Assembly (NCBI GenBank): GCA_945866505.1
Contig: CAMBHH010000019.1
Location: forward strand, 1 to 25,951
Source: Flavobacterium psychrophilum
GTDB taxonomy: Bacteria; Bacteroidota; Bacteroidia; Flavobacteriales; Flavobacteriaceae
Length of the DNA: 25,951 nucleotides
Reading direction: 5' to 3'
Shown piece by piece: positions 1,595 through 21,200 of this stretch. The position numbers and the translations under genes are program-made. Below the pieces are notes generated by a model, which worked only from the letters and a program-made list of their open reading frames with translations, was not told the DNA's origin and did no database searches. Numbering within the stretch: the first letter of the stretch is position 1; each line of letters opens with the position of its first letter.

Positions 1595-2944
1595 ATGACT
1601 GCACTAAAAATTTTTTTGATTGAAGATGACCCTTTTTTTGGTGCAGCTTTAAAATATCATTTGAAATTAAATCCAGATTTTGACGTGTACCTTTTCACAT
1701 CTGGAAAAGAATGTATCAGTAATTTATATCAAAAACCAGACATAATTTGTTTAGATTTTGGATTGCCTGATATTACCGGTGATAAATTGCTAAAAAGGAT
1801 TCAGGAAACAAATAATAAAATACCTATAATAATTATTAGCGCACAAGAAGAAATAGAGGTTGCAGTTAATTTTTTAAAAGCCGGTGCGAAGGATTATATT
1901 ATTAAAAATGAACAAACTAAAGACATTCTTTGGAATGCAATTAATAAAATTAGAGAGAATCTTGATCTTGTAAACGAAGTAGAAGACTTAAAGGAACAAC
2001 TAGAGCAAAAATTTAGTTTCGAGAAAACGATAATTGGACAAAGTGAAGCTATAAAAAGTGTTTTCAGTAAAATAAATAAATCCATTAATACTAATATAAA
2101 TGTTTCGATTACTGGCGAGACAGGAACAGGAAAAGAGGTTGTGGCAAAGGCAATTCACTATAATTCAGATAGAAAAAACAAACCTTTTATTGCCATAAAT
2201 ATGGCTGCAATTCCTAAAGATTTGATGGAAAGCGACTTCTTTGGTCACGAAGTAGGAGCTTTTACAGGAGCTAACAGTAGAAATATAGGAAAATTTGAAC
2301 AAGCTAATGGTGGAACTATTTTTTTGGATGAAATAGCCGAATTAGATTTGAATCTTCAAAGTAAATTGTTGAGAGTTTTGCAAGAAAGAGAAGTCGTTCG
2401 TTTGGGAGGCACTACAAAAATAAAGTTTGATGCGAGATTGATAATCGCTACTCACAAGGATCTAGCGCAAGAGGTAAAAAATGGAAACTTTAGAGAGGAT
2501 TTATATTATAGAATTATAGGTTTGCCTATTGTGTTGCCTCCTTTAAGAGAAAGAGGAAATGACACATTATTATTGGCAAAATATTTTATTGACTTATTTA
2601 CAAAAGATAATAAAATGAAGGCTATTTCGCTTTCGAAGGAAGCTAAAGAAAAGCTCCTAAAGTATCCGTTTCCTGGAAACATTCGAGAGTTAAAATCGGT
2701 TATTGATTTGGCTTGTGTGATGTGTGAAAATAATGAAATAGTAGCAGATGATCTCACTTTTAATAGCATTAACAATACTGATTTTTTCCTGTCGGACGAA
2801 AAAACATTAAAAGAACATACTACTGAAATTATCTTGCATTATCTTAAAAATAATAGAAACGACGTTTCGAAAACTGCTAAAATACTTGATATTGGCAAGT
2901 CAACTATTTATAATTTAATACAATCTTTAGAACAACAAAAATAG
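1595..2944 (+). CDS. Sigma-54-dependent response regulator (NtrC/AtoC family)
   Basis: A cytoplasmic DNA-binding activator of 449 residues, the normal length for the family. An N-terminal receiver domain (about 4-118) has the acidic pair D11/D12, the likely phospho-acceptor D54 in ICLDFGLPD, and the conserved K in YIIKN. A short linker leads to the AAA+ domain (about 144-372) with Walker A GETGTGKE (174-181), the sigma-54 contact loop GAFTGA (221-226), Walker B GGTIFLDE (239-246), the arginine-finger region FREDLYYRI (299-307) and GNIRELK (361-367). A Fis-type helix-turn-helix closes the protein (about 415-445, NDVSKTAKILDIGKSTIYNL). All residues needed for ATP hydrolysis and sigma-54 activation are present. 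No histidine kinase gene lies next to it in the window. Its position directly upstream of, and in line with, the exopolysaccharide-like operon suggests it controls that operon, but this is inference; no convincing sigma-54 -24/-12 site was found between them. Confidence 0.95.
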   Translation: MTALKIFLIEDDPFFGAALKYHLKLNPDFDVYLFTSGKECISNLYQKPDIICLDFGLPDITGDKLLKRIQETNNKIPIIIISAQEEIEVAVNFLKAGAKDYIIKNEQTKDILWNAINKIRENLDLVNEVEDLKEQLEQKFSFEKTIIGQSEAIKSVFSKINKSINTNINVSITGETGTGKEVVAKAIHYNSDRKNKPFIAINMAAIPKDLMESDFFGHEVGAFTGANSRNIGKFEQANGGTIFLDEIAELDLNLQSKLLRVLQEREVVRLGGTTKIKFDARLIIATHKDLAQEVKNGNFREDLYYRIIGLPIVLPPLRERGNDTLLLAKYFIDLFTKDNKMKAISLSKEAKEKLLKYPFPGNIRELKSVIDLACVMCENNEIVADDLTFNSINNTDFFLSDEKTLKEHTTEIILHYLKNNRNDVSKTAKILDIGKSTIYNLIQSLEQQK

Positions 2945-3736: not shown

Positions 3737-4882
3737 ATGTTTAGTATTATTAATTTTTTCGAGAATCTATATTACAAGTTTATTGTAATGGCTCTTGTAA
3801 TTCGTATTACTGTAGTAGTTACCATTTTCTTAATTCTTTTGTTGCTTTTTATTGCTACTTTGAGCCTGGTTAACTATTATATCAAAAAACGATTCGAACT
3901 TAGGGAAGCAGAGCGAAAAAGGAATAGTGATTGTTATACTGTTTTATCAGGAATTCTTACAGACCCTGAGATCATTCCCTTCAACAATTTACAGTATGAT
4001 TTTGCATCAATAAAACAACGCTGTCATTCAGAAATTCCAGACATAATTTATGAAATGGTACTCATCAAAAATGACTTTCCGTTTGAATTTAATTATGAAA
4101 ATTTTTTATCTTTAGCACGTCTTTTCAAATTGACAGCCTATTGGGATGATAAATTAACAGATAAATCGCTGAAAGTGAAAATGGAAAACCTTCAAACTAT
4201 TATTGATTTAAGGGCCAATATTTCAGAGTCTATCCTTTCTACTTTGTTGTATCATAAAAATAGCGAACTTCGTAAAAAAGCACGTATTGCCCAAATTCAC
4301 CTAAGTCAACACGAACCATTTAAGTTTTTTGACGAAGAATTTGATAAAGATTTTACGGTTTGGGACAAGAGTAAAATTCATGACATTCTTTTAAATAAGC
4401 CAACACAAACGATTCCTAACTTTGTTCGATGGATACCTAAAGTTAGTAATGTTAACTTACAGTCGTTTTTTATTTATGAAGTTGGTTACTACAATCAAGG
4501 GGAAAATAAAGAATTTCTTTTTGATTTCTTTAAGACTACACCAAACGATGGGGTAAAGATTCAAATTATAGAAACTTTAAAGATGTTGGGAATTGAAAGT
4601 ATGGCGCATAATTTAATTAAACAATATGGTGCCTGTTCAGAAAATGTTCAATTATGCATGATCAATAATTTAAAACATATTCAAACAGATCCATTGTTGT
4701 TGCCGTTCTATGTTCGCGCTTTCGAAAGCGCTTATGAAACAGATTTGAAATTGGCTTTAGGGGAAGCGATTTATTCATCAGAAAAAAATGGTCAGCGAGT
4801 AATTGAAGTTTTAGAGCGTGACGCAAAAGGATTTGATTATCTTATTTTTGAACACATTAAAAATCCTTTGCTTTTAAATTAA
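3737..4882 (+). CDS. Membrane-anchored HEAT-repeat-like protein, first gene of the operon
   Basis: A 381-residue protein with one long hydrophobic segment near the N terminus (about residues 14-47, from KFIVMALVIR to TLSLVNYY), followed by a basic stretch (KKRFELREAERKR) that should stay in the cytoplasm. The remaining ~320 residues are hydrophilic and predicted all-helical, with leucine-spaced helix pairs (LLYHKNSELRKKARIAQIHL; IIETLKMLGIESMAHNLI; MINNLKHIQTDPLLLPFYVRAF) that look like HEAT-type repeats. No catalytic motif is visible. The next gene, a processive glycosyltransferase, starts 13 bases after its stop, so the two are probably translated together and may form an inner-membrane complex, with this protein as scaffold or regulator in place of PgaD or a PilZ subunit. 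The ATG at 3737 was taken as start; a second at 3788 would still keep the membrane segment. The HEAT call is by helix pattern, not by a signature motif. Confidence 0.75.
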   Translation: MFSIINFFENLYYKFIVMALVIRITVVVTIFLILLLLFIATLSLVNYYIKKRFELREAERKRNSDCYTVLSGILTDPEIIPFNNLQYDFASIKQRCHSEIPDIIYEMVLIKNDFPFEFNYENFLSLARLFKLTAYWDDKLTDKSLKVKMENLQTIIDLRANISESILSTLLYHKNSELRKKARIAQIHLSQHEPFKFFDEEFDKDFTVWDKSKIHDILLNKPTQTIPNFVRWIPKVSNVNLQSFFIYEVGYYNQGENKEFLFDFFKTTPNDGVKIQIIETLKMLGIESMAHNLIKQYGACSENVQLCMINNLKHIQTDPLLLPFYVRAFESAYETDLKLALGEAIYSSEKNGQRVIEVLERDAKGFDYLIFEHIKNPLLLN

Positions 4883-4895
4883 GAGTTTACTATTT

Positions 4896-6350
4896 ATGGA
4901 TACAATTTTATACGTCTATCAATTTGTGATTTTTTTTTATGCCTTTGCTCTCGTGCTTATTTATACCATGCTTGCGATTTTGGCATTTTTAAAATTGCGA
5001 CAACTGGTAGCCCAAAAAAGTTCTGACACACAAAAAATATTTAGGGAATCTCCTTTTATTCCCGGCATTTCGATTGTTGCACCGGCATATAATGAAGAGA
5101 AAACCATCATTAATAATGTAACATCATTTCTTACGGTAAACTACCCCAAATTTGAAGTGGTGATTATTAATGATGGTAGTAAAGACGATACGTTGCAACT
5201 TCTTATTGATAACTTTGAAATGGTTGAAACTACTTATGCTTATGTAGAGAAAATTAAAACGAAGCCGTTTAAGCGTATTTTCAAATCTACAAATCCAGAA
5301 TATTCAAGATTAATTGTAGTAGATAAAGAAAATGGAGGTACTAAAGCTGATGCCTCAAACGCGGGAGTTAATGTTGCTAAATATCCATACTTTATTTGTA
5401 CTGATGTGGATTGTGTTCTTGACCGTGAGGCATTAACCAAAATGATTCTTGCTGTAATTAGCACTAAAACACGAGTAATTGCCGTTGGAGCTACCATGCG
5501 AATGGTAAACAGTTGTGTAGTGGAAGACGGTGTTTTGCTAGAAGCTAAATTGCCTGTTAGAATGTTTCCATTATACCAAGAAATTGAATATTTGCGAAGT
5601 TATTATATTGGGAAACTCGGATTTTCTACCATCAATGCAATTAGTAATGTCTCTGGGGGTTTAGGCTTGTTTGATAAAGAAATTGCAATTGGCGCTGGTG
5701 GATATGATCCTTTATCGCACGCCGAGGATATGGACATGACCACGAGGATGATTGCGTATATGATTAACTATCAAAAGCCGTACAAAATTGACTTAGTACC
5801 CGATACCTGTGCGTGGACGGAAGGTCCACCATCATTTCGTGTATTGAACCGTCAAAGGACTAGATGGGCGAGAGGTTTGTATCAAATTTTCTCAATCCAT
5901 TGGCAATATGTATTCAATAGAAAATACAAAAAAATGGGATTGATTTCATTCCCATTTATCTTTTTCTTCGAATTTTTAGCTCCGATTATTGAAACAGTTG
6001 GCTATTTAGCAACAATTTGGCTTATTATTGTAGGCGGAGTTAACTGGAATACGGCTTTCTTGATGCTGTTTTTTTCCTATATTTTCGGACTCAGTTTGTC
6101 TTTGACGACTCTTTTGTACGAAAGACTTTTAGAACACCGTTTTAGAAATAGAGAATATTTACGATTAATCTTATTTTGTTTAGTTGAGCCCGTTATTTAC
6201 CACCCGTTGATTGTTTTTTTTAATATAAGGGGCTATATCGATTATTTGACTAAAAGTACTTTTGAATGGGGAACTATGACTAGAGAAGGAACGGCCGGTA
6301 AGAAAACAACTAAAGCTAAAGAACCAGTAACACAAACAATTCAAGTATAA
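4896..6350 (+). CDS. Processive family 2 glycosyltransferase (polysaccharide synthase)
   Basis: An integral membrane glycosyltransferase of 484 residues that should polymerise a beta-linked polysaccharide from nucleotide sugar on the cytoplasmic face. An N-terminal membrane helix (about 5-34) precedes the GT-A domain. The synthase motifs are all present: VAPAYNEE (61-68), D93 in IINDGSKDD, the DxD metal site TDVD (169-172), the catalytic-base acidic motif HAEDMD (275-280) and QRTRW (320-324), which corresponds to the Q/RxxRW of cellulose, PNAG and hyaluronan synthases. Three to four hydrophobic segments follow (about 349-445). The short basic tail (KKTTKAKEPV) has no PilZ domain. The size and layout are closest to PgaC/IcaA-type enzymes, but the sugar cannot be told from sequence. 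It lies 13 bases after the HEAT-like gene and 6 bases before the TPR/beta-barrel gene, which fits a synthase-dependent secretion operon. Confidence 0.93.
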   Translation: MDTILYVYQFVIFFYAFALVLIYTMLAILAFLKLRQLVAQKSSDTQKIFRESPFIPGISIVAPAYNEEKTIINNVTSFLTVNYPKFEVVIINDGSKDDTLQLLIDNFEMVETTYAYVEKIKTKPFKRIFKSTNPEYSRLIVVDKENGGTKADASNAGVNVAKYPYFICTDVDCVLDREALTKMILAVISTKTRVIAVGATMRMVNSCVVEDGVLLEAKLPVRMFPLYQEIEYLRSYYIGKLGFSTINAISNVSGGLGLFDKEIAIGAGGYDPLSHAEDMDMTTRMIAYMINYQKPYKIDLVPDTCAWTEGPPSFRVLNRQRTRWARGLYQIFSIHWQYVFNRKYKKMGLISFPFIFFFEFLAPIIETVGYLATIWLIIVGGVNWNTAFLMLFFSYIFGLSLSLTTLLYERLLEHRFRNREYLRLILFCLVEPVIYHPLIVFFNIRGYIDYLTKSTFEWGTMTREGTAGKKTTKAKEPVTQTIQV

Positions 6351-6356
6351 AATATT

Positions 6357-9146
6357 ATGTTTAAAAGCAAAAACCTACTTAAAAATACAATCTTGATAAC
6401 AATTACGCTGCTAATAAGTAGTAGCACATTATCGGTTGTTTATGCACAAACTTCAGAGGAATCAACCTTTCAGAAAGCCAACAAATTATTCAAGCAAAAT
6501 CGTTTGGAAGAAGGCAAGCAAATGGTAGATATAGGTTTGGAGGAAAGTCCTTATGATGCCGATTTATTGATGCTAAATGGCAAATATTATCATGAGAAAA
6601 AAAATAACGATAAAGCAAGATTCAATTTAATTAAGAGTTTGAAGTACGATCCAAATAATGTGGATGCAAAGCAGATTTTGACAAACGTAGAAATAGAAGA
6701 TAAACATTATTCGGCGGCAATTTGTTATATCAATGAACTTCTACAGGTAAACCCTTATTGGAAAGGACTTTGGCGTAAAAAAATAGAGGTGTATAGATTG
6801 CAAGGTAACAGTGTTGAAGCGAATAGATTGTTGAAGCGAATTAATCAAATTTACCCAGAAGACAGTCAGATAAAAGAAGATTATCGTTATAACCTTCAAA
6901 CTGAAATTCAAAATCTTAAAAAATCTGGTAAAGTCGATGCCGCTTTAAAAATGACCGATGAGTTAATGGCAGTAGATAAAACGAATCCTAATTTATACGT
7001 TGATGTAATCAATACTCATATTGCGGCTGGGGATTATGACAAAGCGCTCGTTTATGCAAATCAAGCATTAACATACATGCCTAATAATAGTTACCTAATT
7101 ACTAAAAAAGCTTCTATACTTGCTGATAGTGGTGATATTAATGAAGCATTAAATTTTATTAGATCTAAAAATAAAGGAAATGGTCAGTTATCTGCGCTTT
7201 ATAATCAATTGCTATTAGAAAGTGCTCGTGTCCAAAATGATAAAGATCCCTATACACTTTATGGTAAAATTTTAGAAAAATCTCCCGGTAATCCAGAGGC
7301 TTTGGAGTATTTATTAAACACTTCTTTATCAAGAGGTTATTATTCTGATGCGCAAAATTATATTAATATGGCCAAGAAATCTGGAGGAGATAACAAAAAA
7401 TTACTTTCAAAAGAGTACACGCTTTATACTCAAATGGGAAATGATTCAAAAGCAAATGCAGTTTTGACTAAGATGTACACTCGTTTTCCTGAAGACGCAG
7501 AAATTCGCGACAATTATGTTAATTATCAGTATAAGTTAGCGCGCCAAAATATGTTGAACCAACAATATAGTGAGGCGTTAATTCAATTGACTTTCTTAAC
7601 GAAACTGTCTAAAAATGATTATACAGAAGTATGTTTGCAGGAGTTAACAGAGGCCTATTTAAAAACAGGAAGGAAACAGGAAGCATTTGCTACTGTTCAA
7701 AAATTAAACAACGATTTTCCTAGTAACAAAGACAATAAACTTCGTAAAGTAGGTGTTTTGGTTGCAATGGATCGAGACGAAGAAGCATTAACTTTTTATG
7801 AAGATTTTCTCAAAGGCGTTAATCAGAATGAATTTGAAAATTACCTGATAGCCTATGATGAAATTGGCACGAAGTTTTTGAAAAAACTTGTTGAAGCAGG
7901 TCAAGTGCAAAAAGTATTGGAAGTTGCAGATAGAATAATAGCTATAAATCCAGAAAGTGAGCTAGCTTATACCTACGCCATCAACGCTGCATTTAGTATT
8001 AATGATAGTAAATTAATGTTAAAGTATTCGCAAAAAGCTATTGAAGCAAATCCAGATAGTATCGTTTTTAAAACGAAATATGCCGAAGCACTAAGTAAAA
8101 ATGAAATGTACGAAGAAGCTGGTAATTTATTAAAAGAGTTATTACTGTCAAATCCGTATAACAAAGACGTTGTAAACACCAATTCTCAGTACACTTTAGA
8201 TTACGGAAAGATGCTTTACAAGAATAAGGATGCAAACCAATTAATTATTGTTACAGATGATGCTTTGAAATATAATCCTAACAACAAAGAACTTCTGCAT
8301 CAAAAAGGACTTGCATATCTATTGCTGAAAGATTATGCAAAAGCTTATGAATTCATGAAATTTTACGAACCATCACCTACAGAGCAAGCTAGTTTTCTAA
8401 AAGAACTGGAATGGTTGCAATATAAAACATATAAAAATCAAATTTCACTTAATTATCTTAGAAGTCGTTTCGCGGATGAGATCAATGTCAATGCAATTGC
8501 AATTTTAGAATATACTCGTTTTCAGTCTAATACAAATACCTATACAGGACGCTTAAATTATACCGGTAGGGAGTTAGGATCTGGTGTTTTAGGCCAAGCA
8601 GAATGGACCCACATACTAAATAGAAAAACCTATTTCATTGCAAATTTGGGTTTTGGAACACGTTATTTTGCTAATGTTATTGCCAATGGGAGTATTTATA
8701 GAAGCTTCGCAAAAGATTACGAATTAGAACTTGGATTGGGCTATAGGAATTTGCCTGATGTGTACACTTTGACCAATTTGGTTGCAGGTGTATCACACAA
8801 AGGCGATAACATGTGGCTCAATGCTAAAGCATTACTGTACAGAACCGAAAGTTCATTGACACTTTACAATGTCTTAGCACAATCTCGATTTTACATTTTT
8901 AATGATGGTCGAAGTCATCTAACGGCGATGGCATCTGTGGGAACAGTTCCAGAGTCTGGAGCTTTAGATTTGGCAGTCTATAATACTTACAACGCATTTA
9001 ACACGATGGTTGGTGCAGGCGGTCAATACATGATAAATAGACGTTTGACATTGAGCGTACTTGGAAACTGGTACAATTACAAATACAATCCAAACGAATA
9101 TAGCAACTTGTTTAATGTATATCTTACGGCGATTTATTCTTTTTGA
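6357..9146 (+). CDS. TPR protein with C-terminal YaiO-type outer-membrane beta-barrel
   Basis: A 929-residue exported protein. The signal peptide (about 1-31) has a basic start, the core ILITITLLISSSTLSVV and a likely cut after VYA. A long series of tetratricopeptide repeats follows (about 35-660), seen in helix pairs such as ANKLFKQNRLEEGKQMVDIG, DYDKALVYANQALTYMPNN and KDYAKAYEFMKFY. From about residue 693 the sequence turns into alternating beta strands rich in aromatic residues (NYTGRELGSGVLGQAEWTHI, AKDYELELGLGYRNLP), ending in LFNVYLTAIYSF with a terminal Phe, as outer-membrane barrels usually do. This architecture matches the YaiO-family barrel and is analogous to PgaA (periplasmic TPR plus exit porin). 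Inferred role: moving the polymer made by the preceding synthase through the periplasm and outer membrane. The barrel is about 235 residues, smaller than the PgaA barrel, so it may be a narrower pore or a modifying partner. Confidence 0.9.
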   Translation: MFKSKNLLKNTILITITLLISSSTLSVVYAQTSEESTFQKANKLFKQNRLEEGKQMVDIGLEESPYDADLLMLNGKYYHEKKNNDKARFNLIKSLKYDPNNVDAKQILTNVEIEDKHYSAAICYINELLQVNPYWKGLWRKKIEVYRLQGNSVEANRLLKRINQIYPEDSQIKEDYRYNLQTEIQNLKKSGKVDAALKMTDELMAVDKTNPNLYVDVINTHIAAGDYDKALVYANQALTYMPNNSYLITKKASILADSGDINEALNFIRSKNKGNGQLSALYNQLLLESARVQNDKDPYTLYGKILEKSPGNPEALEYLLNTSLSRGYYSDAQNYINMAKKSGGDNKKLLSKEYTLYTQMGNDSKANAVLTKMYTRFPEDAEIRDNYVNYQYKLARQNMLNQQYSEALIQLTFLTKLSKNDYTEVCLQELTEAYLKTGRKQEAFATVQKLNNDFPSNKDNKLRKVGVLVAMDRDEEALTFYEDFLKGVNQNEFENYLIAYDEIGTKFLKKLVEAGQVQKVLEVADRIIAINPESELAYTYAINAAFSINDSKLMLKYSQKAIEANPDSIVFKTKYAEALSKNEMYEEAGNLLKELLLSNPYNKDVVNTNSQYTLDYGKMLYKNKDANQLIIVTDDALKYNPNNKELLHQKGLAYLLLKDYAKAYEFMKFYEPSPTEQASFLKELEWLQYKTYKNQISLNYLRSRFADEINVNAIAILEYTRFQSNTNTYTGRLNYTGRELGSGVLGQAEWTHILNRKTYFIANLGFGTRYFANVIANGSIYRSFAKDYELELGLGYRNLPDVYTLTNLVAGVSHKGDNMWLNAKALLYRTESSLTLYNVLAQSRFYIFNDGRSHLTAMASVGTVPESGALDLAVYNTYNAFNTMVGAGGQYMINRRLTLSVLGNWYNYKYNPNEYSNLFNVYLTAIYSF

Positions 9147-9313
9147 AATCGCCATTAACAACGAATTTGTTGCAAACAATTGAATAATCATCGAACTCCT
9201 ATGAAAATAACATATTGTGAGATAAACATCAATAAGTATAAAAGGCGACACGAGCGCTAGCGAACTGGCAAAGCATACCATATATGACCGCTGAAAAATC
9301 ATAATTTACATGT

Positions 9314-11461
9314 ATGAAAATGATTATAATACAAAATATATTTTTTCTCCTTTTTATCTCTTGCGGAATGTCTGTAGAAGATGAGCAATCAATTGCATTT
9401 GACTACTATGTTGTCACAGCCGCTACCAACGGTAATATTAAAGAAGTAGATTATTTGTACAATCACTTAAAAAAGCGTTCAGCCGAAGGGGTAGTTTTAA
9501 AACAAGGTCAGGATAAAATTCCAAATAATGGAAAAAACGTCCAATTTATAGACGTTGCGGTAGACAAAAATCTTGATGGGGACTATGAAATTATTAAAAA
9601 CGAAAACAAATTAACATTAAAGGCAAATTCAAAAAAAACATTGTATTGGCTGTATTATCAGTATTTTCAAGCATTAAGTGAAAACACTTCTAAAATAAAA
9701 GCGGAAGATTTGCCTCCAGCCATTGTGAATTTTGCAGCATCCAAAAAAGTAAAATTTGCATTTAGTTATAGAGAACCTCACTTAAAAGCCAATTTGGTAA
9801 AGGATTATGATGTAATCGTTAATACTAATAATGTAGAAAATGATTGGGGAATTTGGGGACATCAGCTATTTAATATTATTAATAAAAACCCTAAGGATGA
9901 GCATTATAGCATTGTGGATGGTCAACTAAATAAGGATCAATTGTGTTTTGGCAAACCTGAAATGTATAATTTTTTAGTAAATTTTGTACTCGAAAACTAT
10001 GGGGAAAAAGAAGATAGTCATCAAAATTTTGTAGTATGTCCAGCAGATAATAATTTAGTCTGTACGTGCTCAGCCTGCGCCAAACTTGGGAATGTTAAAG
10101 GAAATTCAAGTTTTTCGGTAATTGCTCTAGTAAATAAATTGGCTACTCGGTTTCCTAATCATCAGTTCTTTACAATTGATTATTTATCCGTAAAGACGCC
10201 TCCGTCGGTTATGATGCCAAAAAATACAGGAATATTGATTAGTTCTATAGATATTCCCAGAAAAGTAAATATAGATAGCAATAACCCATCTGTTAAAGCT
10301 TTCGCATCTAAAGTTGAAAGTTGGCATAAGGTTTGCTCTTCAATATATGTCTGGGACTATATCTCTAACTTCGACGATTATTTGACACCTTTTGCAATGT
10401 TGTCTGTTTGTAAAACAAACTTCAATTTTTATAAAAAGTTAAATATAAGCGGAATTTTTGCAAATGGGGCAGGGTATGATTATAGCAGCTTTAACGAAGT
10501 GCATACATATGTGTTAGCTGCCTTGATGCAAGATCCAACGTTAGATGTGAACCAGTTGGTAAACAGATTTTGCAAGCAGCATTATGGTGAATCTGGGAAG
10601 CTGGTAGCCGATTATATTTTAGGACTGGAGAAAGCGATGCAAACATCAAACTATAGTTTAGATTTATATAATGGTGTTGGTAAAATGACAAAGACCTACC
10701 TGAATAAAGAAGATTTTTTTAATTTTTATAATGAAGTTGGGGCTTTAAAATCAGGCAAAACAGAAGAGATTGATTATAGATTGAGTCAATTGCATACAGG
10801 ATTGATTTTCACAGCGATGCAGATTAATTTGGCCAGCGGATTTGATGATAATTTTGGATTTGCAAAAAAGCATGATAACCAAATTTTAATCAATAATGAT
10901 TTTAAAAACAGTCGAACAGTTTTTGAAAATCAATTTAAAATTAAGGATGTTTTTCTTACTCGTGAACGTGACGGTATGGTGTTAAACTACCTTAATGATG
11001 TAAAATCAGAAGTAATAGATGCCAAATTGCAAACTAATTTATTGTCTAAGGATATTTTGAAGGTTACAAGTATATTAGACGAAGATTATCAAGACGAAAG
11101 TGTATTGACAGACGGCATTCCTGGTTTGCCGTTCGATTATCATAATGGCTGGTTGTTAGTTAGCGCAGCAGACTTGACCGCCGAAATCAAAGGATTAAAT
11201 GCTTCTGGCTTGTTTCGACTTAAATTAAATTTTTTAATTGATGAACATTTAAAATTGAGAGCGCCAGATAAAATACAAGTTTTAGTGAATAACATTATTG
11301 TTAAAACAATAAAACCTACGGTAACGATGTCCGAGAGTGCAAGAAAAGTTAGTTTAGAAACGTCGGTTAATTTGAACTTAAACGATAAGGTAGTAATAAA
11401 AGTGTATCGTGATAAAATCTTTAAAAAATTCGCTTGCGATGAAATATATTTGCATAAATAA
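9314..11461 (+). CDS. DUF4838-type surface lipoprotein, glycosidase-like
   Basis: A 715-residue predicted lipoprotein: short hydrophobic start with lipobox LLFISC (Cys17), then GMSVEDEQ, acidic residues as found in surface-exposed Bacteroidota lipoproteins. The N-terminal ~130 residues look like the small alpha/beta domain that precedes the catalytic barrel in alpha-glucuronidase-related families (NENKLTLKANSKKTLYWLYY). The next part fits DUF4838: SYREPH (151-156), the Cys cluster VCPADNN...CTCSAC (C242, C250, C252, C255), and VWDYISNFDDYLTPF (346-360). The final ~150 residues look like a beta-sandwich. The substrate is unknown. In pga-type systems a lipoprotein hydrolase/deacetylase sits beside the porin, and this gene could fill that place; that is inference. 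It starts 167 bases after the barrel gene, the largest gap in the operon, and overlaps the next gene. A second Met two codons later is an equally possible start. Confidence 0.8.
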   Translation: MKMIIIQNIFFLLFISCGMSVEDEQSIAFDYYVVTAATNGNIKEVDYLYNHLKKRSAEGVVLKQGQDKIPNNGKNVQFIDVAVDKNLDGDYEIIKNENKLTLKANSKKTLYWLYYQYFQALSENTSKIKAEDLPPAIVNFAASKKVKFAFSYREPHLKANLVKDYDVIVNTNNVENDWGIWGHQLFNIINKNPKDEHYSIVDGQLNKDQLCFGKPEMYNFLVNFVLENYGEKEDSHQNFVVCPADNNLVCTCSACAKLGNVKGNSSFSVIALVNKLATRFPNHQFFTIDYLSVKTPPSVMMPKNTGILISSIDIPRKVNIDSNNPSVKAFASKVESWHKVCSSIYVWDYISNFDDYLTPFAMLSVCKTNFNFYKKLNISGIFANGAGYDYSSFNEVHTYVLAALMQDPTLDVNQLVNRFCKQHYGESGKLVADYILGLEKAMQTSNYSLDLYNGVGKMTKTYLNKEDFFNFYNEVGALKSGKTEEIDYRLSQLHTGLIFTAMQINLASGFDDNFGFAKKHDNQILINNDFKNSRTVFENQFKIKDVFLTRERDGMVLNYLNDVKSEVIDAKLQTNLLSKDILKVTSILDEDYQDESVLTDGIPGLPFDYHNGWLLVSAADLTAEIKGLNASGLFRLKLNFLIDEHLKLRAPDKIQVLVNNIIVKTIKPTVTMSESARKVSLETSVNLNLNDKVVIKVYRDKIFKKFACDEIYLHK

Positions 11462-12029
11462 CAGGTTTTTATATAATTTTAAGAAGTCTATTCATATATT
11501 TACAGTATTTGTAATATATTTGCTCTTTACTTCTTGTGATTTTGAAGAAAATTTAGCTGATGTAGTGGTAATTGATCCAATAAGGCATTATTACCCTGTT
11601 GTTCAAGGCCAAAAATTAAATATAGTAGTTAAGTTAGAAAACAAAAGTGATTTTCCGTTTAAAATTACTGATATACAAACTTCTTGCGGTTGTATTATAC
11701 TTAAAGATGGAATATTAGAAGTTGTGCCAGCGCAAAGTACGGGTATTATTGAGTTGACTTATGACAGTAATAAAAATATTGGTTTAGTGAATCATTTTAT
11801 TTATGTATATGGTAATTTAAAAAAGACAGATAGACTGATTTGTGATTTTGATTTGCACGTAGTTCCTGATGCTTTATACACGCCTGATTATGAAGAATTG
11901 TACCGCAAAGAGGTCGAAGCTGAAGGTGGTGTTAAAAATATGGTCGAAGGAAATGAAAACGAAAAAGGTTACTATTTGTCAACAGGAGATAGTAAAGGTG
12001 AGAATAATCATACTGATTTAAAATATTAA
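11439..12029 (+). CDS. DUF1573 domain lipoprotein
   Basis: I chose the ATG at 11439, which overlaps the preceding gene by 23 bases; a GTG at 11409 in the same frame would add ten residues before the signal. The 196-residue product has a basic N-region, a hydrophobic core (IHIFTVFVIYLL) and lipobox FTSC followed by DFEEN, acidic residues typical of surface-exposed lipoproteins in this phylum. The core matches DUF1573, an Ig-like fold common in Bacteroidota: VVQGQKLNIVVKLENKSDFP, then the hallmark ITDIQTSCGCI, then STGIIELTYDSN. The C-terminal ~50 residues are charged and probably disordered (KEVEAEGGVKNMVEGNENEK). No enzymatic role is known for the family. The overlap upstream and the 3-base gap to the next gene mean it is co-translated with both neighbours. 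Confidence 0.85.
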   Translation: MKYICINNRFLYNFKKSIHIFTVFVIYLLFTSCDFEENLADVVVIDPIRHYYPVVQGQKLNIVVKLENKSDFPFKITDIQTSCGCIILKDGILEVVPAQSTGIIELTYDSNKNIGLVNHFIYVYGNLKKTDRLICDFDLHVVPDALYTPDYEELYRKEVEAEGGVKNMVEGNENEKGYYLSTGDSKGENNHTDLKY

Positions 12030-12032
12030 AAA

Positions 12033-14708
12033 ATGGAAAAATACACCGACTTAAAATTCGAAGGAGATTTGGCATTTTTAAATGAACATCTTGAGCAGGC
12101 GCGCATTATTTCTAATGATTCTGTAAAGGAAAACCATAAAGAAGGAAATGCGGGTAGTGTACAGCGCGCTGTTCCCAATAAAAATTATTTTGAAAACAGC
12201 GGGAATTTTGCTTATAATCTAACTTCACCAAATATTGTAAATGTACCATCTAAATGGAATTTGAAAAATCAATTTGAAGATAATAACAATAAATCTAAAA
12301 ATGTTTACACGAAGAATAATTCTGAACAGGAAGAAATAATAGAAAATAATAACGATTTTCAAGGTACAAAAAGTATTCAAAAAAATGACGAATACAAGGA
12401 CACTGATTACGATAACCATAAGACACAATTTCATCAATCAGAAAAAATTCACCCATTAAATTCTCAAAATACCGATGATGAAGCTAATTTTGAGCAACTA
12501 GAAACTATAGATAGCGACAATAATATTCAAAACAGTAGAAGTTTTCAAAATGTTAATGAATATAATAAAAGTGATGACGAATATGATGCAATGCCTCTTG
12601 ATCAATTAGAAAAAATCAATGAATCAGATTCTCAAAACACAGATTACATTAACAATAGAAGAAATTTTCTTGAAACTATCTTAGATGAATTTAATGATTC
12701 GGAAAGTAGTGTGAAAGAGTCAAATTTCGAGCAACTAGAAAGTTTAAAAGGCGATAATAGTTTTGAACTTAAGGATGAATTTTACAATGACATAAAGTTG
12801 GCTAACAGAACTCAATTTGTTAAATCCGAAAATAGCAATATATTAGATTCTCAAAACGTAGCTGATATTCATAATAAAAGAAATTTTCTCGAAACAATCT
12901 TACACGAATTTAATGATTCTGAAAGCGGTAATAATGAAGGTAATTTTGAGCAACTAGAAAATTTAGAAAACGACAATAGTTTTCAAAACGGAAGAAGTCT
13001 CCAGTATAATGATGAATTTTATAATGAAAATAACTTTCATCAAAGAACTCAATTTGATCAATCAGAAAAAATGGAAAATTTAAATAACTCTCAAAATATT
13101 GAAAGTTTTCAAAATTCAAGAAATTTTCAAGATCCGAGTTCAATTAAAATTAGCAGTGCTGAAAACAGTCTGAATTGGGATGATTTTTCACAAACAGAAA
13201 GGCTGAAAAATGAGGGTGATTTTCAGAATACAGGAAATTATATAAATACTGATGAATTCAATAATAACGCTGACTCGCTTTATAGAAAACCGTTTCAACA
13301 ATCAGAAAAAACTAGAAATATAATGGATACTCAACATAATGAAAATTTTCAAAATTTTCAAAATCCTAGCGCAAGTAAATTTAACGGTTCCGAAAACAGT
13401 CATTATATGGATAATTTTGCGCAGACAGAAAGGTTGAAATATGATAGCGATTTTCAGAGTGCAATAAATTATAGAGATAATGTTGATTTCAATAATAGCA
13501 ATAACTTGCAGAATAGAACACAGTTTGAGCAATCAGAAAAAATTGAAAATTTCAGAAACAGTTTAAATAAAGAAAGTTTTGAAAATTCAAGAAATTTTCA
13601 TGATGCACGTTCAAGTGTATTAAACGGTTCTCAAAATATCCAGAATAGAGGTGGTTTTGTTGCACCTGAAAGGTTTAATAATGACGGTAATTTTCAAACC
13701 CCAAGAAATTATAAAAATACTGATGACTCAAATAATAATGCTGATTTGCATTATAGAACACAATTTGAGCAATCAGAAAAAACTGGAAATTTTAGAGATA
13801 CTGCAAACAATGCAAGTTTTCAAAACTCAAGAAATAATTTTCAAGATTCTCGATCAAGTGGCTTTAATGGGTCAGAAAATATTAAAAATTGGGGAAATTT
13901 TGAGCAACCAGAAAGATTAAAAAATGACAGTAATTTTCAGGCTCCAAAAAATTATAAAAACACTGATGACTTCACTAATGGAAATGACGTGCAATATAGA
14001 AACCAATTTGGGCAATCAGTAAAAACTGGAAATCTGAGAAATACTTCAAATAATGAAAGTTTTGAAAATTCAAGAAATTTTCAAGATCCAAGATCAGGTA
14101 GGTATAATGGTTCGGAAAATAATCAGAATTGGGGTCATTTTGCACAACCTGAAAGGTCAAATAATGAAAGTACTTTTCAAAGTCCAAAAAATTATAAAAA
14201 CACTGATGAATTCAATAACGGAAATGACTTGCATTATAGAACACAATATGATCAACAAAAGTCGCAAAATATAAATAATACCGACGACAGGGATAAATTT
14301 TACAATAGCAATAGTAGAAATGATAAGCAATTTAACCAGAATCCTAGCGATTTAGATAATGCTACAAATCCCCAATACTCGCAACATAACAATAGAAATC
14401 AAAATTCTGAAAATAATAATTATGCCGCAGGAGGTTATAGAAATAATCAAGCGGAACCTAATCCAGTTGCTAGCAATCCTGTAAGTTCGAAAAATGACAT
14501 TGATGTTAATGTATATGATGTTAACGAATTTGAAGTGGTGCAACCATCCATTAGTAGAAGAAAAAGTCAATTAGAGTTAATGCTCCTTAGCTCTGGTTTT
14601 GATATGGAAATGTTCAATAGTTTTAAAGAAGAGCTTCTTGAAATAGAAAAAGATAATATTATTATGAAATACAAGCAAGATTTAATGATGACGATTCTTA
14701 AAAGTTAA
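12033..14708 (+). CDS. Asn-rich repetitive protein of unknown function, last gene of the operon
   Basis: I recognise no family. The 891 residues are dominated by N, S, F, D, E and Q, with almost no Cys or Trp except the repeated NW. There is no signal peptide, lipobox or membrane segment. A unit of about 80 residues is repeated: the anchor RTQFEQSEK (and variants) starts at codons 338, 418, 495, 575, 656 and 736, giving spacings of 80, 77, 80, 81 and 80, with more degenerate copies at codons 259 and about 130. Each unit runs roughly RTQF.QSEK / SF.NSRNFQD.RSS / NGSEN..NW / F.QPERL.ND..FQ / NYKNTD.FNN. Only the ends are non-repetitive: an N-terminal helix (MEKYTDLKFEGDLAFLNEHL) and an acidic/hydrophobic helical C terminus (RRKSQLELMLLSSGFDMEMF and onward to ILKS). 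It starts 3 bases after the DUF1573 gene, so it belongs to the operon. A disordered scaffold or condensate-forming protein is possible, but no function can be assigned. Confidence 0.85.
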   Translation: MEKYTDLKFEGDLAFLNEHLEQARIISNDSVKENHKEGNAGSVQRAVPNKNYFENSGNFAYNLTSPNIVNVPSKWNLKNQFEDNNNKSKNVYTKNNSEQEEIIENNNDFQGTKSIQKNDEYKDTDYDNHKTQFHQSEKIHPLNSQNTDDEANFEQLETIDSDNNIQNSRSFQNVNEYNKSDDEYDAMPLDQLEKINESDSQNTDYINNRRNFLETILDEFNDSESSVKESNFEQLESLKGDNSFELKDEFYNDIKLANRTQFVKSENSNILDSQNVADIHNKRNFLETILHEFNDSESGNNEGNFEQLENLENDNSFQNGRSLQYNDEFYNENNFHQRTQFDQSEKMENLNNSQNIESFQNSRNFQDPSSIKISSAENSLNWDDFSQTERLKNEGDFQNTGNYINTDEFNNNADSLYRKPFQQSEKTRNIMDTQHNENFQNFQNPSASKFNGSENSHYMDNFAQTERLKYDSDFQSAINYRDNVDFNNSNNLQNRTQFEQSEKIENFRNSLNKESFENSRNFHDARSSVLNGSQNIQNRGGFVAPERFNNDGNFQTPRNYKNTDDSNNNADLHYRTQFEQSEKTGNFRDTANNASFQNSRNNFQDSRSSGFNGSENIKNWGNFEQPERLKNDSNFQAPKNYKNTDDFTNGNDVQYRNQFGQSVKTGNLRNTSNNESFENSRNFQDPRSGRYNGSENNQNWGHFAQPERSNNESTFQSPKNYKNTDEFNNGNDLHYRTQYDQQKSQNINNTDDRDKFYNSNSRNDKQFNQNPSDLDNATNPQYSQHNNRNQNSENNNYAAGGYRNNQAEPNPVASNPVSSKNDIDVNVYDVNEFEVVQPSISRRKSQLELMLLSSGFDMEMFNSFKEELLEIEKDNIIMKYKQDLMMTILKS
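12807..14300 (+). repeat. Tandem ~240-bp coding repeats inside the Asn-rich protein gene
   Basis: Anchor codons lie at 12807 (degenerate), 13044, 13284, 13515, 13755, 13998 and 14238, i.e. steps of 237, 240, 231, 240, 243 and 240 bases. All are multiples of three, so the frame is kept. The units from 13515 to 14237 are the most alike, and divergence grows toward the 5' end, which suggests expansion by recent duplication in the 3' half. Confidence 0.8.
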
Positions 14709-15107: not shown

Positions 15108-15120
15108 TTAAAATTGTACT
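15101..15120 (-). terminator. Hairpin spanning the stop codon of the second DoxX-like gene
   Basis: AGTACAAT (15101-15108) and ATTGTACT (15113-15120) form an 8-bp perfect stem with a 4-base loop. The stop codon of the DoxX-like gene (15108-15110) lies at its loop. On the minus strand it is followed by ATTTTAATT, so it is a weak terminator or an mRNA-end stabiliser. Confidence 0.35.
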
Positions 15121-15452
15121 GTTAAATAGAAAATATAAGCATTTAAACCCATATAAAACAGTGCAGGTATCGTAATCCAAAGACTGTCTTTTAAATTAAA
15201 TCTTACTATTACTCCAAGCAACATTAATAACGCTAAACCTGCAGACGATAGCAATAAAAGAGGTTCGTACCAAATGCCAACAAATAAACCCAACGAACCC
15301 AAAATTTCTAGTATAATTACTAATAACCCCAATTTTTCTAGATTAAACCGCTTAAATTCATTTTTCATGTGCGAGCCAACAAAGTATGAAATAGCATAAA
15401 AAAGAAATGAAAAACTAGATACTAAAATACAGACAACAAGTGTATTCATCAT
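15108..15452 (-). CDS. DoxX-like small membrane protein (second of a pair)
   Basis: A small integral membrane protein. I start it at the ATG of MMNTLVVCILV, whose A is the last base of the stop codon of the gene before it (TAATG on the minus strand); an upstream ATG at 15491 would add 13 residues that overlap that gene. The 114-residue product has four hydrophobic segments: TLVVCILVSSFSFLFYAISY, LGLLVIILEILGSLGLFVG, PLLLLSSAGLALLMLLGVIV and a last one ending NAYIFYLTVQF. The glycine-rich second helix and the overall size fit the DoxX-like family. Members are linked to quinone or redox functions in some bacteria, but no activity can be predicted here. The one-base overlap shows translational coupling to its partner. 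Confidence 0.75.
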   Translation of the reverse strand: MMNTLVVCILVSSFSFLFYAISYFVGSHMKNEFKRFNLEKLGLLVIILEILGSLGLFVGIWYEPLLLLSSAGLALLMLLGVIVRFNLKDSLWITIPALFYMGLNAYIFYLTVQF

Positions 15453-15796
15453 TAAATTATATCTGAAGTTGCTATTGATAAAAACAAACATAAAATCAAT
15501 AAAACTAATGACGGCAAGTGCTTAATATATGGATTTTTGATTTTAAAATGAAAATATTGTGCAGCAATCATAAGCATTCCCATAAGTGTTGAGGATATTG
15601 TTAATAGTTCAGGATTCCATATACTTACAATTAATAAGGCTGATAATGTAATTTTTGAAGCTCCAACAAAATTTCTGGTTAAGTCGCTTAATCCAAATTG
15701 ATTAAATTCTTTAACAACATTAAAATAGCGGAATATCCACACATAATATACAGATGCTGATACAATAATTTGTGCAGTCAGAATGAGATTTGACAT
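15452..15796 (-). CDS. DoxX-like small membrane protein (first of a pair)
   Basis: A 114-residue integral membrane protein with four hydrophobic segments: an N-terminal LILTAQIIVSASVYYVWIF, then ASKITLSALLIVSIW, STLMGMLMIAAQYFHF and HLPSLVLLILCLFLSIA. The loop FNQFGLSDLTRNFVGASKIT after helix 1, leading into a Gly/Ala-containing helix 2, is typical of the DoxX-like family. It has the same length as the following gene and overlaps it by one base, so the two probably form a hetero-oligomer. No histidine, metal-binding or catalytic motif stands out. A perfect -7 element (TAAATTTG) lies 67 bases upstream of the start. Confidence 0.75.
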   Translation of the reverse strand: MSNLILTAQIIVSASVYYVWIFRYFNVVKEFNQFGLSDLTRNFVGASKITLSALLIVSIWNPELLTISSTLMGMLMIAAQYFHFKIKNPYIKHLPSLVLLILCLFLSIATSDII

Positions 15797-16102: not shown

Positions 16103-16672
16103 TTAGCTTACCATAATGTCGTGTTTGTAAAGCAATCCTTTTACGCCATCAAGCGAAAAAACAGCTTTCTTAATCTTGGTTTTTGTTGGGTCAATTGTGT
16201 AATTGAAACTAGTCTTAAAATTGGCTTTACTTGCATTACCTTTGCCAAATTCTGAACGGTATAAATCGCAGTTATCAAAGACCACTTCGGTTAAATCAGT
16301 GCTCATAAAATCTACAGCAACCATACTACAATCGACAAATGTAGTGGCTTTTATTTTTAAGGTATAAAATTTCGAAAAGTCCAAAACGCATTCCTTAAAA
16401 TGAACCTCAAAAATGAGTTTATCGCACATTGCAAAATTGACAGATGAAATTTTGCAACGGTTAAATAACACGCTTCTCAATGCTACGTGATTGATTTTGG
16501 CACCGCTAAAAATGCAATCGTTGAAGATGCAATCAATAAAAACTACTCCAATAAAATTGCATTGCGAGAAATCACAAGTACTAAATGTGCAGCATTCAAA
16601 TTCCTTTAAATTAATATCTTTTTCACCGTAAGTGAGGTCATTATATTCGATGTCAAGGAAATAGTTTGGCAT
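16103..16672 (-). CDS. Pentapeptide-repeat protein, Qnr/McbG-like
   Basis: A 189-residue cytoplasmic protein that should fold as a right-handed quadrilateral beta-helix. Units of the A(D/N)LXX type run through most of it, many with Phe at the centre and Cys at the next-unit boundary: FECCTFSTCDFSQCNFIGVV, then FIDCIFNDCIFSGAKI, FKECVLDFSKF, FVDCSMVAVDF, FDNCDLYRSEF and ASKANFKTSF. The C terminus (YTIDPTKTKIKKAVFSLDGV, then KGLLYKHDIMV) resembles the dimerisation module of Qnr and McbG proteins, which mimic DNA and protect DNA gyrase. The length is slightly below the ~218 residues of plasmid Qnr. Chromosomal relatives are common in Flavobacteriia, and most have no proven role, so gyrase binding is only a possibility. 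It is a single gene with no close co-directional partner: the DoxX pair starts 306 bases further on. Confidence 0.85.
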   Translation of the reverse strand: MPNYFLDIEYNDLTYGEKDINLKEFECCTFSTCDFSQCNFIGVVFIDCIFNDCIFSGAKINHVALRSVLFNRCKISSVNFAMCDKLIFEVHFKECVLDFSKFYTLKIKATTFVDCSMVAVDFMSTDLTEVVFDNCDLYRSEFGKGNASKANFKTSFNYTIDPTKTKIKKAVFSLDGVKGLLYKHDIMVS

Positions 16673-18253: not shown

Positions 18254-21200
18254 ATGAACTACTCTAGGATGATAACGAGATTGCCAAATTTGTTCGGATT
18301 TTTGATTTTAGCTTTTACTCTTGCGAATATTTCTGTATTTGCTCAGAGTCCAACCGATCCAGCAAAAAACTTTAATATTTTTACATTGGGCAACACTACA
18401 TTGAAAACCAATGAAACTCAAGGTCCGATTGCAATAGGAGGAGACTTAACGATTGAAGGCAGCTATCAAGTTGCTACCAAAAATGCGGGGAACTTTGTTG
18501 TGAATAACGTAAAAATTGGTCTTTTAGTTAACGGAAAAGTGAATTACCAAAGTGGCAGCTCACTACAAGTTAACTCAAACGGATATGTAAAAATCGGTAA
18601 TTCAACTAGTTCAACTGTTTGGTATGCTGATCCAAATAATGCAACTCCGCCTATTAGAATTACACCAAATTCTAATTACAATTCGTCACCCATTATTATG
18701 TTGCAAGCAAATGCTCCAACTTTAGGAGTAAGTGTAAACAACAACCCTGTTTTTCAGTCTAATTTATTAGATTTTGCAAGTGCTTTTCAAAATATGAAGG
18801 CTTCATCGCTAAGCATATCTCAAAATACACCAAACGTACAGTTGACCACTCCCAACGGTCAGTCAATTCCAAATACAAACCTACCAAATCAAGTAAAAAT
18901 TAATTTACAAAATGGTCTTAATTACTGGAACATCACAGCGGCAGATTTGAATGCTGTTCAAGTTTTGGATTTCACCAGCAACAAACCAACGGCTACAAAA
19001 GTTTTAATAATTAATGTGGACGCGGCGGGAACTTTCGATTGGAAAGTATGGAATCAAACAGGAATTAGCTTTGAAAATTGTCCATATATTATGTATAATT
19101 TTTATAATACTACCAAACTAAACATCACAAACGGTTCAGGAATCAAAGGAACAGTTTTCGCACCATTTGCTGACATCGCAAAAGGATCAGGAAATCAATC
19201 CAATATTGAAGGTCAGGTAATTGCAAATAGTTTTAGCCACTCAGGTGGAGCAGTGCATTATGCGATATTCTCTCCAGCAGCTGCAGGTGTGGCGCCAACT
19301 GCGAACTGCTCTGTTGCCAATGCAATCCAATGTTTAGCTGGCAATTCGTTTAATTTCACAAATACTACAACACCAATACAAGCTAATTTACCGCTTACTT
19401 ATCTTTGGGAATTTGGAGATGGAACCACGAGTACCGCTGAGAATCCTACAAAAGTTTATGCGTCTGCAGGAGCTTACATTGTAAAACTTACCGCTACAAA
19501 TGGTAAAGGGTCTAGTTCAAAAACAGTAATAACAAATGTAAATAGCGCAACCAACGCTTCTGTTAGCCAATCGACCTTATTGAATGTAGTTGGCTCGGTA
19601 ACCAAAAAATTTGTATTGAATAATAGTTCAGGATTTACAAATTATTCTTGGTCGGTATCGAATGGTGGAACTGGATTGTTTTCCAATCAAAGCATAGTAA
19701 ACTTTGCATTTACGCAAGTTGGAGTTTACCAAGTAATAGTAACTGCTACAAATGACAAAGGTTGCTCCAGTACGACCATCATACCGGTATCAATCGATGC
19801 TATTGTACCTGGTGTTGCTCCGACTGCAAATTTCTCTGTTGCTAATTCAACCCAATGTTTAGCGACCAATTCATTTAATTTTGCAAATACAACAACCCCG
19901 ATACAAGCAAATTTACCGCTTACTTATTTTTGGGATTTTGCAGATGGAACCACAAGTACAGCTGAAAATCCAATAAAAGTATATTCAGTTGCGGGATCAT
20001 ATAGTGTAAAGCTGACCGCTACAAATAGCCTAGGGTCAAATACAAAAGCAATGAAAGTAATGGTAGTTACTGCCACCAGCGCTGCTGTTAGCCAATCGAC
20101 CTTGTCGAAAGTAAATGGTGTAATAACCAAAAAATTTGTATTAAATAATAGCTTCGGATTTACAAATTATTCTTGGTCGGTATCGAATGGCGGAACAGGA
20201 TTGTTTTCGAATCAAAGTACAGTAAACTTTGAATTTACACAAGCAGGAGTTTATCAAGTAATAGTAACTGGGATAGATGATAAAGGCTGCTCAAGTACAA
20301 CTATAATACCTGTATCTATTTCATTTACAGATGTGGGTATCGCTCCAACTGCAGATTTTTCTATTGACAATTCAACCCAATGTTTAGCAACCAATTCTTT
20401 TAATTTCACCAATGCTACAACGCCAATCCAAGCGAATCTGCCGTTTACTTATCTTTGGGTTTTTGGAGATGGAACAACAAGCACGTCTTTGAATCCGACA
20501 AAAGTTTATTCGGTTGCAGGAACTTACAGTGTAAGGCTGACTGCTACAAATAGTATTGGGTCTAGTACAAAAGCAGTAACCGTAGCGGTAAATAGCTCAA
20601 CTAGCGCTTTTGTTAGCCAATCAACCTTGTCGAAAACGGCTGGTTCGATAACCAAAAAAATTGTTTTGAATAATAGTTTAGATTTTGCTAATTATACATG
20701 GTCAGTATCCAATGGTGGAACAGGATTATTTTCGAATCAAAGTGCGGTAAACTTTGTGTTTACTCAAGCGGGAGTTTATCAAGTAACAATAACTGGAGTA
20801 AATACTAAAGGTTGCTCAAGTACAACCATAATACCAGTGTCTATTTTAACGGAAGATGTTGGTATCGCTCCAACTGCAAATTTCACTATTGCCAATTTAA
20901 GTCAATGTTTAGCAACCAATTCTTTTAAATTCAACGATACTACAACTCCAATCCAAGCTAGCTTACCATTAACTTATCTTTGGGAATTCGGAGATGGAAC
21001 AACAAGTACAGATGCAAGTCCAACAAAAGTGTATTCCGCTGCGGGAACTTACAGTGTAAAGCTTACCGCTACAAATAGTATAGGCTCTAGTGCTAAAACA
21101 GTACCAGTAACAGTAAATAGTTCAACAGATGCAATCGTTAATCAATCGACCCTATCAAGTGCTGCTGGTTTGATAACCAAACAATTTGTATTGAGTAATA

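Follow-up and report, generated by a model that had tools for sequence, protein, structure and literature searches.

A six-gene run in Flavobacterium psychrophilum, at positions 3,737 to 14,708 of a 25,951-nucleotide stretch (contig CAMBHH010000019.1 of assembly GCA_945866505.1; hereafter, the window), very likely encodes a polysaccharide system of the synthase-dependent type, set apart by a HEAT-repeat membrane protein as putative co-subunit of the synthase. Gene content, gene order, motifs, predicted folds and linkage were established, and from them we draw a reading that we consider probable, in which the encoded machine synthesizes polysaccharide and exports it across the envelope, the HEAT solenoid is an obligate synthase partner replacing PilZ or PgaD, and a receiver protein switches the system in many relatives. 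The HEAT gene and its adjacent glycosyltransferase family 2 (GT2) gene are the core of the system, and their linkage is well documented; the arrangement is widespread, extending to bacteria, haloarchaea and jumbo phage, and is apparently undescribed. The six genes are:

3737..4882, + strand: HEAT-repeat membrane protein, 381 residues (AlphaFold2 model, fold matches, linkage to the GT2 gene)
4896..6350, + strand: GT2 synthase, 484 residues, with D, TDVD, ED and QRxRW motifs, one N-terminal transmembrane (TM) helix and a C-terminal TM cluster
6357..9146, + strand: TPR array (periplasmic) with a C-terminal YaiO-type outer-membrane barrel, 929 residues; signal peptide by eye (PF19413, TIGR04390)
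9314..11461, + strand: DUF4838 lipoprotein, 715 residues, glycoside-hydrolase-like fold (PF16126, AlphaFold2 model)
11439..12029 (internal ATG; a GTG start at 11409 is possible), + strand: DUF1573 lipoprotein (PF07610)
12033..14708, + strand: Asn-rich repeat protein, 891 residues; a lineage-specific addition, not part of the core

Intergenic gaps are 13, 6, 167, -23 and 3 bases when the internal ATG at 11439 is taken as the start of the fifth gene. The list of open reading frames (ORFs), Pfam and alignment reproduce the six ORFs, strand, gaps, motifs and domains described in an earlier reading made from the letters alone (the sequence-only reading), and the synthase-dependent layout that it proposed is upheld by a processive-type GT2, a TPR scaffold, an outer-membrane barrel and a hydrolase-like lipoprotein. 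Pfam returned no family match for the first and sixth genes.

For the first gene product, Pfam HEAT models gave no family at E 0.1. Its AlphaFold2 model (mean predicted local distance difference test score, pLDDT, 93.5) begins with a short N-terminal helix, followed by one TM helix and then an all-helical, cytoplasmic-looking alpha-solenoid of helical hairpins, whose structural matches are HEAT/ARM proteins. In 73 of 74 relatives, the residues that follow the TM window carry more positive charge than those in front of it. The sequence-only reading had called HEAT repeats by eye, a call that is confirmed by the solenoid model, by the fold matches and by two distant relatives that exceed the HEAT_2 cut-off of 27.7 bits (L142 at 73.9 bits and L105 at 28.4); the phage relative L082 falls just under it (26.2).

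Linkage was assessed in two collections of loci. The first consists of 82 related loci (the best 80 of at least 456 genome loci by GT2 similarity, plus two viral loci), of which some end early on the downstream side; the HEAT gene lies 5' of GT2 in 80 of the 82, and the remaining two start at a contig edge less than 350 bases from GT2. The second, intended to avoid similarity-based choice, was taken from an even draw of 247 genomes from a single phylum centred on Bacteroidota (the phylum sample), with GT2 family membership set at E 1e-100, so that more distant members are uncounted. It comprises 66 GT2 rows from 60 genomes, L108 giving two rows and L093-L096 having been removed because they duplicate L158-L161. 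A first HEAT profile matched upstream of 51 of the 66 GT2s, and of 29 out of 29 where GT2 scored at least 500 bits. The profile, seeded from the 82 loci including L082, was then iterated on the phylum loci (from 56 to 66 members), and with this version HEAT stands directly upstream of GT2 in 66/66 (65 by script, plus L142, where the GT2 start was called too far upstream and runs into the HEAT ORF), while no other ORF in the 66 loci matches it. Reciprocally, a family GT2 follows downstream of every one of the 36 HEAT matches that reach 55 bits in the 247 genomes. At 40-55 bits this holds for 5 of 15 matches (two of the genomes represented, G014 and G028, are without a family GT2 match), the others being other HEAT proteins; some HEAT match, mostly weak and partial, occurs in 105 of the 247 genomes. 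HEAT is split over two ORFs in L012, L024, L070 and L073, and an extra partial copy is present in L025. Pairing is thus essentially obligate in the loci examined, in keeping with the earlier suggestion that a HEAT membrane protein takes the place of PgaD or PilZ, and HEAT would act as an obligate co-subunit that docks on GT2.

The second gene product, which scores 69.9 bits against the Pfam GT2 model, has the features of an inner-membrane synthase (D, DxD, ED and QxxRW motifs and a TM cluster), from which synthase activity is predicted. The motifs lie at D93, TDVD 169-172, ED 277-278 and QRTRW 320-324; D93, D170 and R323 are kept in 106/106 aligned relatives, and E277, D278, Q320 and W324 in 105/106. 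QxxRW is usual in processive synthases. The best NCBIfam synthase model is PgaC_IcaA at 116.3 bits, and because this is far under the equivalog cut-off of 422.3 bits, the enzyme is classed by sequence as PgaC-like, yet not PgaC. That shortfall, together with best PDB sequence matches spanning only about residues 50-107, would also fit a GT2 that glycosylates a lipid or protein carrier and makes no free polymer, the barrel serving other cargo; this is unlikely in view of the near-invariant QxxRW, of weak cellulose synthase matches (24.7 bits) located at the QxxRW region, and of a TPR and YaiO barrel protein encoded in the same operon. As a separate observation, eight long GT2 ORFs of 1134-1270 residues occur in the phylum sample (e.g. 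L101:5033-8521, L102:3117-6554 and L103:3903-7715), and the two that were checked, in L102 and L103, are GT2-sulfatase fusions by Pfam, which suggests that polymer decoration may be coupled to synthesis.

In the third gene product, the YaiO barrel scores 67.6 bits with PF19413 (cut-off 23.9) and 43.3 with TIGR04390 (cut-off 32) and follows TPRs, and both these domain scores and the related loci identify a TPR protein with an outer-membrane pore. It is a member of the YaiO barrels by both curated cut-offs, and differs from them by its linkage to a synthase and by its long TPR array. A TPR/YaiO match is present in 77 of the 82 loci (in L082, upstream of HEAT), and a YaiO-type barrel above 15 bits lies within the locus for 56 of the 66 phylum-sample GT2s. 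The DUF4838 lipoprotein matches PF16126 at 158.6 bits (cut-off 26.6) and has no match among PDB sequences up to E 1. Its AlphaFold2 model (pLDDT 91.7) consists of an N-terminal alpha/beta domain, a TIM barrel, a helical region and a C-terminal beta-sandwich, with structural matches to GH115, GH84, GH20 and GH67; D245 is kept in 69/69 relatives and D348 in 67/69. From the glycosidase-like fold of this model one may propose, as an unproven assignment, that DUF4838 plays PgaB's role. Residues 245-255 of this periplasm-facing protein also form a D-x4-C-x-C-x2-C motif that is invariant in the 69 relatives, possibly a metal or disulfide site. The lipobox is clear in the window's DUF4838 protein; a strict pattern finds it in 37/69 DUF4838 and 36/46 DUF1573 relatives, with start calls unrefined. 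DUF1573 scores 42.7 bits with PF07610 (cut-off 26.1).

Comparison with known systems places the operon near, and outside, each of them. PgaB is a periplasmic lipoprotein with a TIM-barrel hydrolase, and the poly-N-acetylglucosamine system (pgaABCD) shares with the window a GT2 synthase, a TPR protein with an outer-membrane barrel and, in DUF4838, a lipoprotein with a hydrolase-like TIM barrel. The window, however, has HEAT and DUF4838 instead of PgaD and a deacetylase domain, and its relatives often carry a receiver gene; Pfam and NCBIfam found neither the PgaB deacetylase/hydrolase nor PgaD in the six genes, and by the models tested the operon does not classify as a pga member. The cellulose system (bcsABZC) combines a QxxRW synthase, a TPR/barrel exit and a glycosidase, all of which have counterparts here (the last a glycosidase-like protein), whereas the window lacks PilZ, has the HEAT co-subunit, and encodes a TPR protein of YaiO type that is only weakly BcsC-like (35 bits). 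Bacillus subtilis YdaJKLMN and Listeria Pss are monoderm GT2 synthase systems whose dedicated partner gene encodes a degenerate GGDEF receptor for cyclic di-GMP (c-di-GMP). They share with the present system a GT2 synthase with a dedicated partner gene in monoderms, and differ in that the partner here, including in Paenibacillus and Planococcus, is a HEAT solenoid. A literature search conducted mainly outside subscription papers and preprints found no paper on a polysaccharide system built on HEAT-GT2 or DUF4838; the words HEAT, YaiO and Bacteroidetes are all absent from the main text of PMC7112194.

Across the 82 loci, DUF4838 is present in 69 (the L017 match was lost to an overlap filter in this table) and DUF1573 lies downstream in 41. 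The full five-gene order of HEAT, GT2, TPR/YaiO, DUF4838 and DUF1573 is found in 37, three of them with two HEAT ORFs, with many of the rest truncated or of a two-GT2 type. The five-gene set occurs in Bacteroides finegoldii, where the annotation calls the third gene hypothetical and gives the other four no more than a domain name; Chitinophaga-type loci consist of a receiver, HEAT, two GT2s, TPR/YaiO and DUF4838. In the phylum sample, DUF4838 accompanies 10 of the 66 GT2s and a sulfatase-type protein 26. Sugar genes adjoin single pairs: glmS with a nucleotidyltransferase, a nucleotide-sugar dehydrogenase with epimerases, and in two cases a galE-like gene (named by our own reading), which suggests that different pairs may make different polymers. 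Three contigs of metagenome-assembled genomes named Limnohabitans, Gastranaerophilales and Beijerinckiaceae (L001, L019 and L032) carry Bacteroidota-like operons and are probably mis-binned.

The sequence-only reading had treated all six genes as one unit and the sixth as a general part of the system. The recurrence of the five-gene order across Bacteroidota sustains the first claim for five of the genes, and the second is not supported, as the Asn-rich repeat protein has five relatives in a protein search and no match in the 82 loci. It is composed of imperfect repeats of about 80 residues and is 18.6% Asn, and in the four of the five relatives that were aligned, about 25 residues at the N terminus and 55 at the C terminus are strongly conserved, with a variable Asn-rich stretch in between. 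One could still suppose that the six genes act as one functional unit with this protein at the surface: only 3 bases separate genes 5 and 6, one gene-6 relative lies on a contig (23,315) equal in size to that of HEAT and GT2 relatives, and another on a contig (13,950) equal in size to that of a HEAT relative. Against this, and allowing for loci cut short downstream, stands its absence from the related loci; no TM segment or signal peptide is seen, so that a surface location is unlikely, and we regard such a six-gene unit as improbable. Gene 6 appears instead to encode a real but lineage-specific protein, probably cytoplasmic and possibly a scaffold there.

The original framing of the system as a Bacteroidota counterpart proved too narrow, the same pair occurring in Proteobacteria, Deinococcus, Bacillota, haloarchaea and a phage contig. 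A tblastn search of plasmid records with the Haloarcula GT2 as query (E 1e-50) gave 14 records, from Haloarcula, Salinirubellus, Halosolutus, Mesorhizobium (three), Paenibacillus, Erythrobacter, Devosia (its GT2 in pieces), Emticicia, Deinococcus, Planococcus, Bacteroides and Legionella adelaidensis, and hence from Bacteroidota, Alpha- and Gammaproteobacteria, Deinococcus, Bacillota and haloarchaea. HEAT is directly upstream of GT2 in all 14 by the phylum-sample profile, which, like its seed, was built without the plasmid records and L163; the lowest score is 22 bits, in Halosolutus, and 12 of the records annotate the upstream gene as a HEAT repeat protein. In 9/9 records whose hosts possess an outer membrane or envelope, a barrel/TPR gene is annotated or matched (in the three from Mesorhizobium, the YaiO protein is annotated but escapes the barrel profile). 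The five haloarchaeal and Bacillota records show none in the 3.5-6 kb that were read to either side, a distribution that an outer-membrane exit would predict.

Barrel, HEAT and GT2 also stand in a row on two viral contigs: at L163:7976-11422 of a 405-kb jumbo-phage contig from IMG/VR and at L082:7945-11389 of a 29-kb contig. On the former, genes for a major head protein and a head maturation protease lie no more than 9 kb away, and the 21 kb that were read hold six tRNAs. Because phage keeps just barrel, HEAT and GT2, these three plausibly form a minimal machine. A putatively viral HEAT-GT2 pair (40 and 372 bits) lies at L247:3553-6266 of MT836222.1, an unverified faecal record named 'Bacteriophage sp.'. 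Beyond L162-L164 there are 77 further viral loci, of which eight lower-scoring ones (GT2 at 132-264 bits) were checked and showed no HEAT, one of these (L166) having less than 400 bases upstream of GT2.

A stand-alone receiver of 118-156 residues is encoded directly upstream of HEAT in 35 of the 66 phylum-sample loci. Of 52 receiver matches shorter than 160 residues in these loci, 48 retain the phosphorylatable Asp and 50 the Lys. Response regulators lie within the same gene run in 9 of the 14 plasmid records, and in two of the three haloarchaea a receiver directly precedes HEAT; the system is probably phosphorelay-linked in many lineages. The receiver is distributed unevenly with respect to DUF1573. 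In 73 rows (the first loci with more than 700 bases before HEAT, plus the window), it is absent beside HEAT in 36 of 40 rows with DUF1573 and present in 24 of the 33 others (Fisher p 3e-8, uncorrected for kinship), and the window is of the DUF1573, receiver-less kind. That these DUF1573-type loci keep HEAT while lacking the receiver is what would be expected if HEAT served only in structure or assembly, perhaps like PgaD, and had no part in signalling, the receiver being merely co-regulated or otherwise employed. We take this alternative seriously, although it falls somewhat short of being probable: it sits poorly with the placement of the receiver next to HEAT in over half of the phylum loci and in haloarchaea, and with the two-REC and GGDEF proteins that fill the receiver slot at three loci. 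In the latter (L139:3633-5195, L140:3395-5035 and L145:4167-5954), two REC domains and one GGDEF domain are joined in a single protein directly upstream of HEAT, which might link phosphorelay to c-di-GMP control.

Passages of PMC7112194 list a c-di-GMP-binding domain or co-polymerase among the features of synthase-dependent systems. The six window genes have no such feature: Pfam and NCBIfam find no PilZ, GGDEF or PgaD domain in them, in agreement with the earlier remark that no c-di-GMP receptor domain was visible. PilZ above the cut-off occurs in none of the 60 genomes with a family GT2, which yield one sub-cut-off match, and GGDEF (at E 1e-10) in 19 of the 60. By GT2 score, GGDEF is found in 0/25 genomes at 500 bits or more, 1/8 at 475-500, 4/4 at 440-475, 6/14 at 400-440 and 8/9 below 400. 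A c-di-GMP-controlled synthase with an unrecognised receptor could draw on the 19 GGDEF-bearing genomes, nine with GGDEF in the same locus, and on the REC domains also carried by three of the six same-locus cases examined. The lack of GGDEF in all genomes with high-scoring GT2s and of PilZ throughout nonetheless makes this explanation quite unlikely, and for the same reasons the branch of the window is unlikely to be under direct c-di-GMP control; distant branches may differ.

Several observations weigh against a receiver-switched, trans-envelope machine built on a HEAT-GT2 complex. For 10 of the 66 phylum-sample GT2s, no barrel above 15 bits was found in the fetched stretch, and a few of the barrel matches are weak or several kb distant. 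The window has no receiver beside its HEAT gene. GGDEF proteins are encoded inside the same locus in nine distant lineages, where c-di-GMP may act. Finally, no HEAT-GT2 gene fusion was seen in the loci examined, and contact is therefore argued from linkage. Fusion had been considered as proof of contact and was set aside: the long HEAT ORFs of L158-L161 (693-931 residues) have long extensions following the solenoid, and the long GT2 ORFs checked were the two sulfatase fusions.

With these points taken into account, we still favor the trans-envelope machine with HEAT as synthase partner, for which we infer a polymer product, HEAT-GT2 contact, phospho-gating and hydrolase activity. At the inner membrane, GT2 would polymerize a nucleotide sugar and thread the chain out, while HEAT, anchored by its TM helix with the solenoid in the cytoplasm, would dock on GT2 to stabilize and/or gate it. 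Passage of the chain across periplasm and outer membrane would fall to the TPR/YaiO protein, with trimming or editing by the glycosidase-like TIM barrel of the DUF4838 lipoprotein and an accessory part for the DUF1573 lipoprotein. In many relatives, a phosphorylated receiver may bind the HEAT solenoid and switch the synthase, as suggested by its being encoded just before HEAT; in the window's subtype the receiver would have been lost or moved. More tentatively, and as a proposal that we hold to be possible but on balance doubtful, the HEAT-GT2 pair may define a cross-domain synthase class in which the HEAT co-subunit takes stand-alone receiver input, so that a phosphorelay switches the enzyme directly and not via c-di-GMP, each lineage adds export and editing genes suited to its envelope, and a minimal barrel-HEAT-GT2 set lets jumbo phages recoat their hosts.

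A HEAT partner beside the synthase from Bacteroidota to haloarchaea offers a direct handle on how exopolysaccharide production is switched in bacteria with few or no c-di-GMP proteins. If the proposed machine is real, a function is gained for HEAT, GT2, YaiO, DUF4838 and DUF1573 genes now annotated by domain only, and some phages would come equipped to make a coat; an exopolysaccharide machine carried by a phage would be of interest in its own right.

Among neighbouring genes, a regulator lies 792 bases upstream of the operon:

1595..2944, + strand: NtrC-type response regulator (REC, sigma-54 AAA+, weak helix-turn-helix)

Control of the operon by this regulator through sigma-54 was considered and rejected, as a scan gave no site above chance (17 loose -24/-12 matches against 13.6 expected, with 22 of 100 shuffles as high). 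Rfam reported no RNA family in the window above its gathering score. Two proteins flanking the operon end in a type IX secretion system (T9SS) sorting domain by Pfam and NCBIfam, which by itself makes a Bacteroidota host very likely. At window positions 18254-23620 lies a gene for a 1788-residue protein with an ice-binding-like adhesive domain, about 10 PKD repeats and a T9SS sorting tail, and at 24713-25147 a short transposase ORF of IS1595 type (ISXO2-like). On the reverse strand 3' of the operon, at 15108-15796 and 16103-16672, are two small overlapping membrane-protein ORFs and a pentapeptide-repeat protein.

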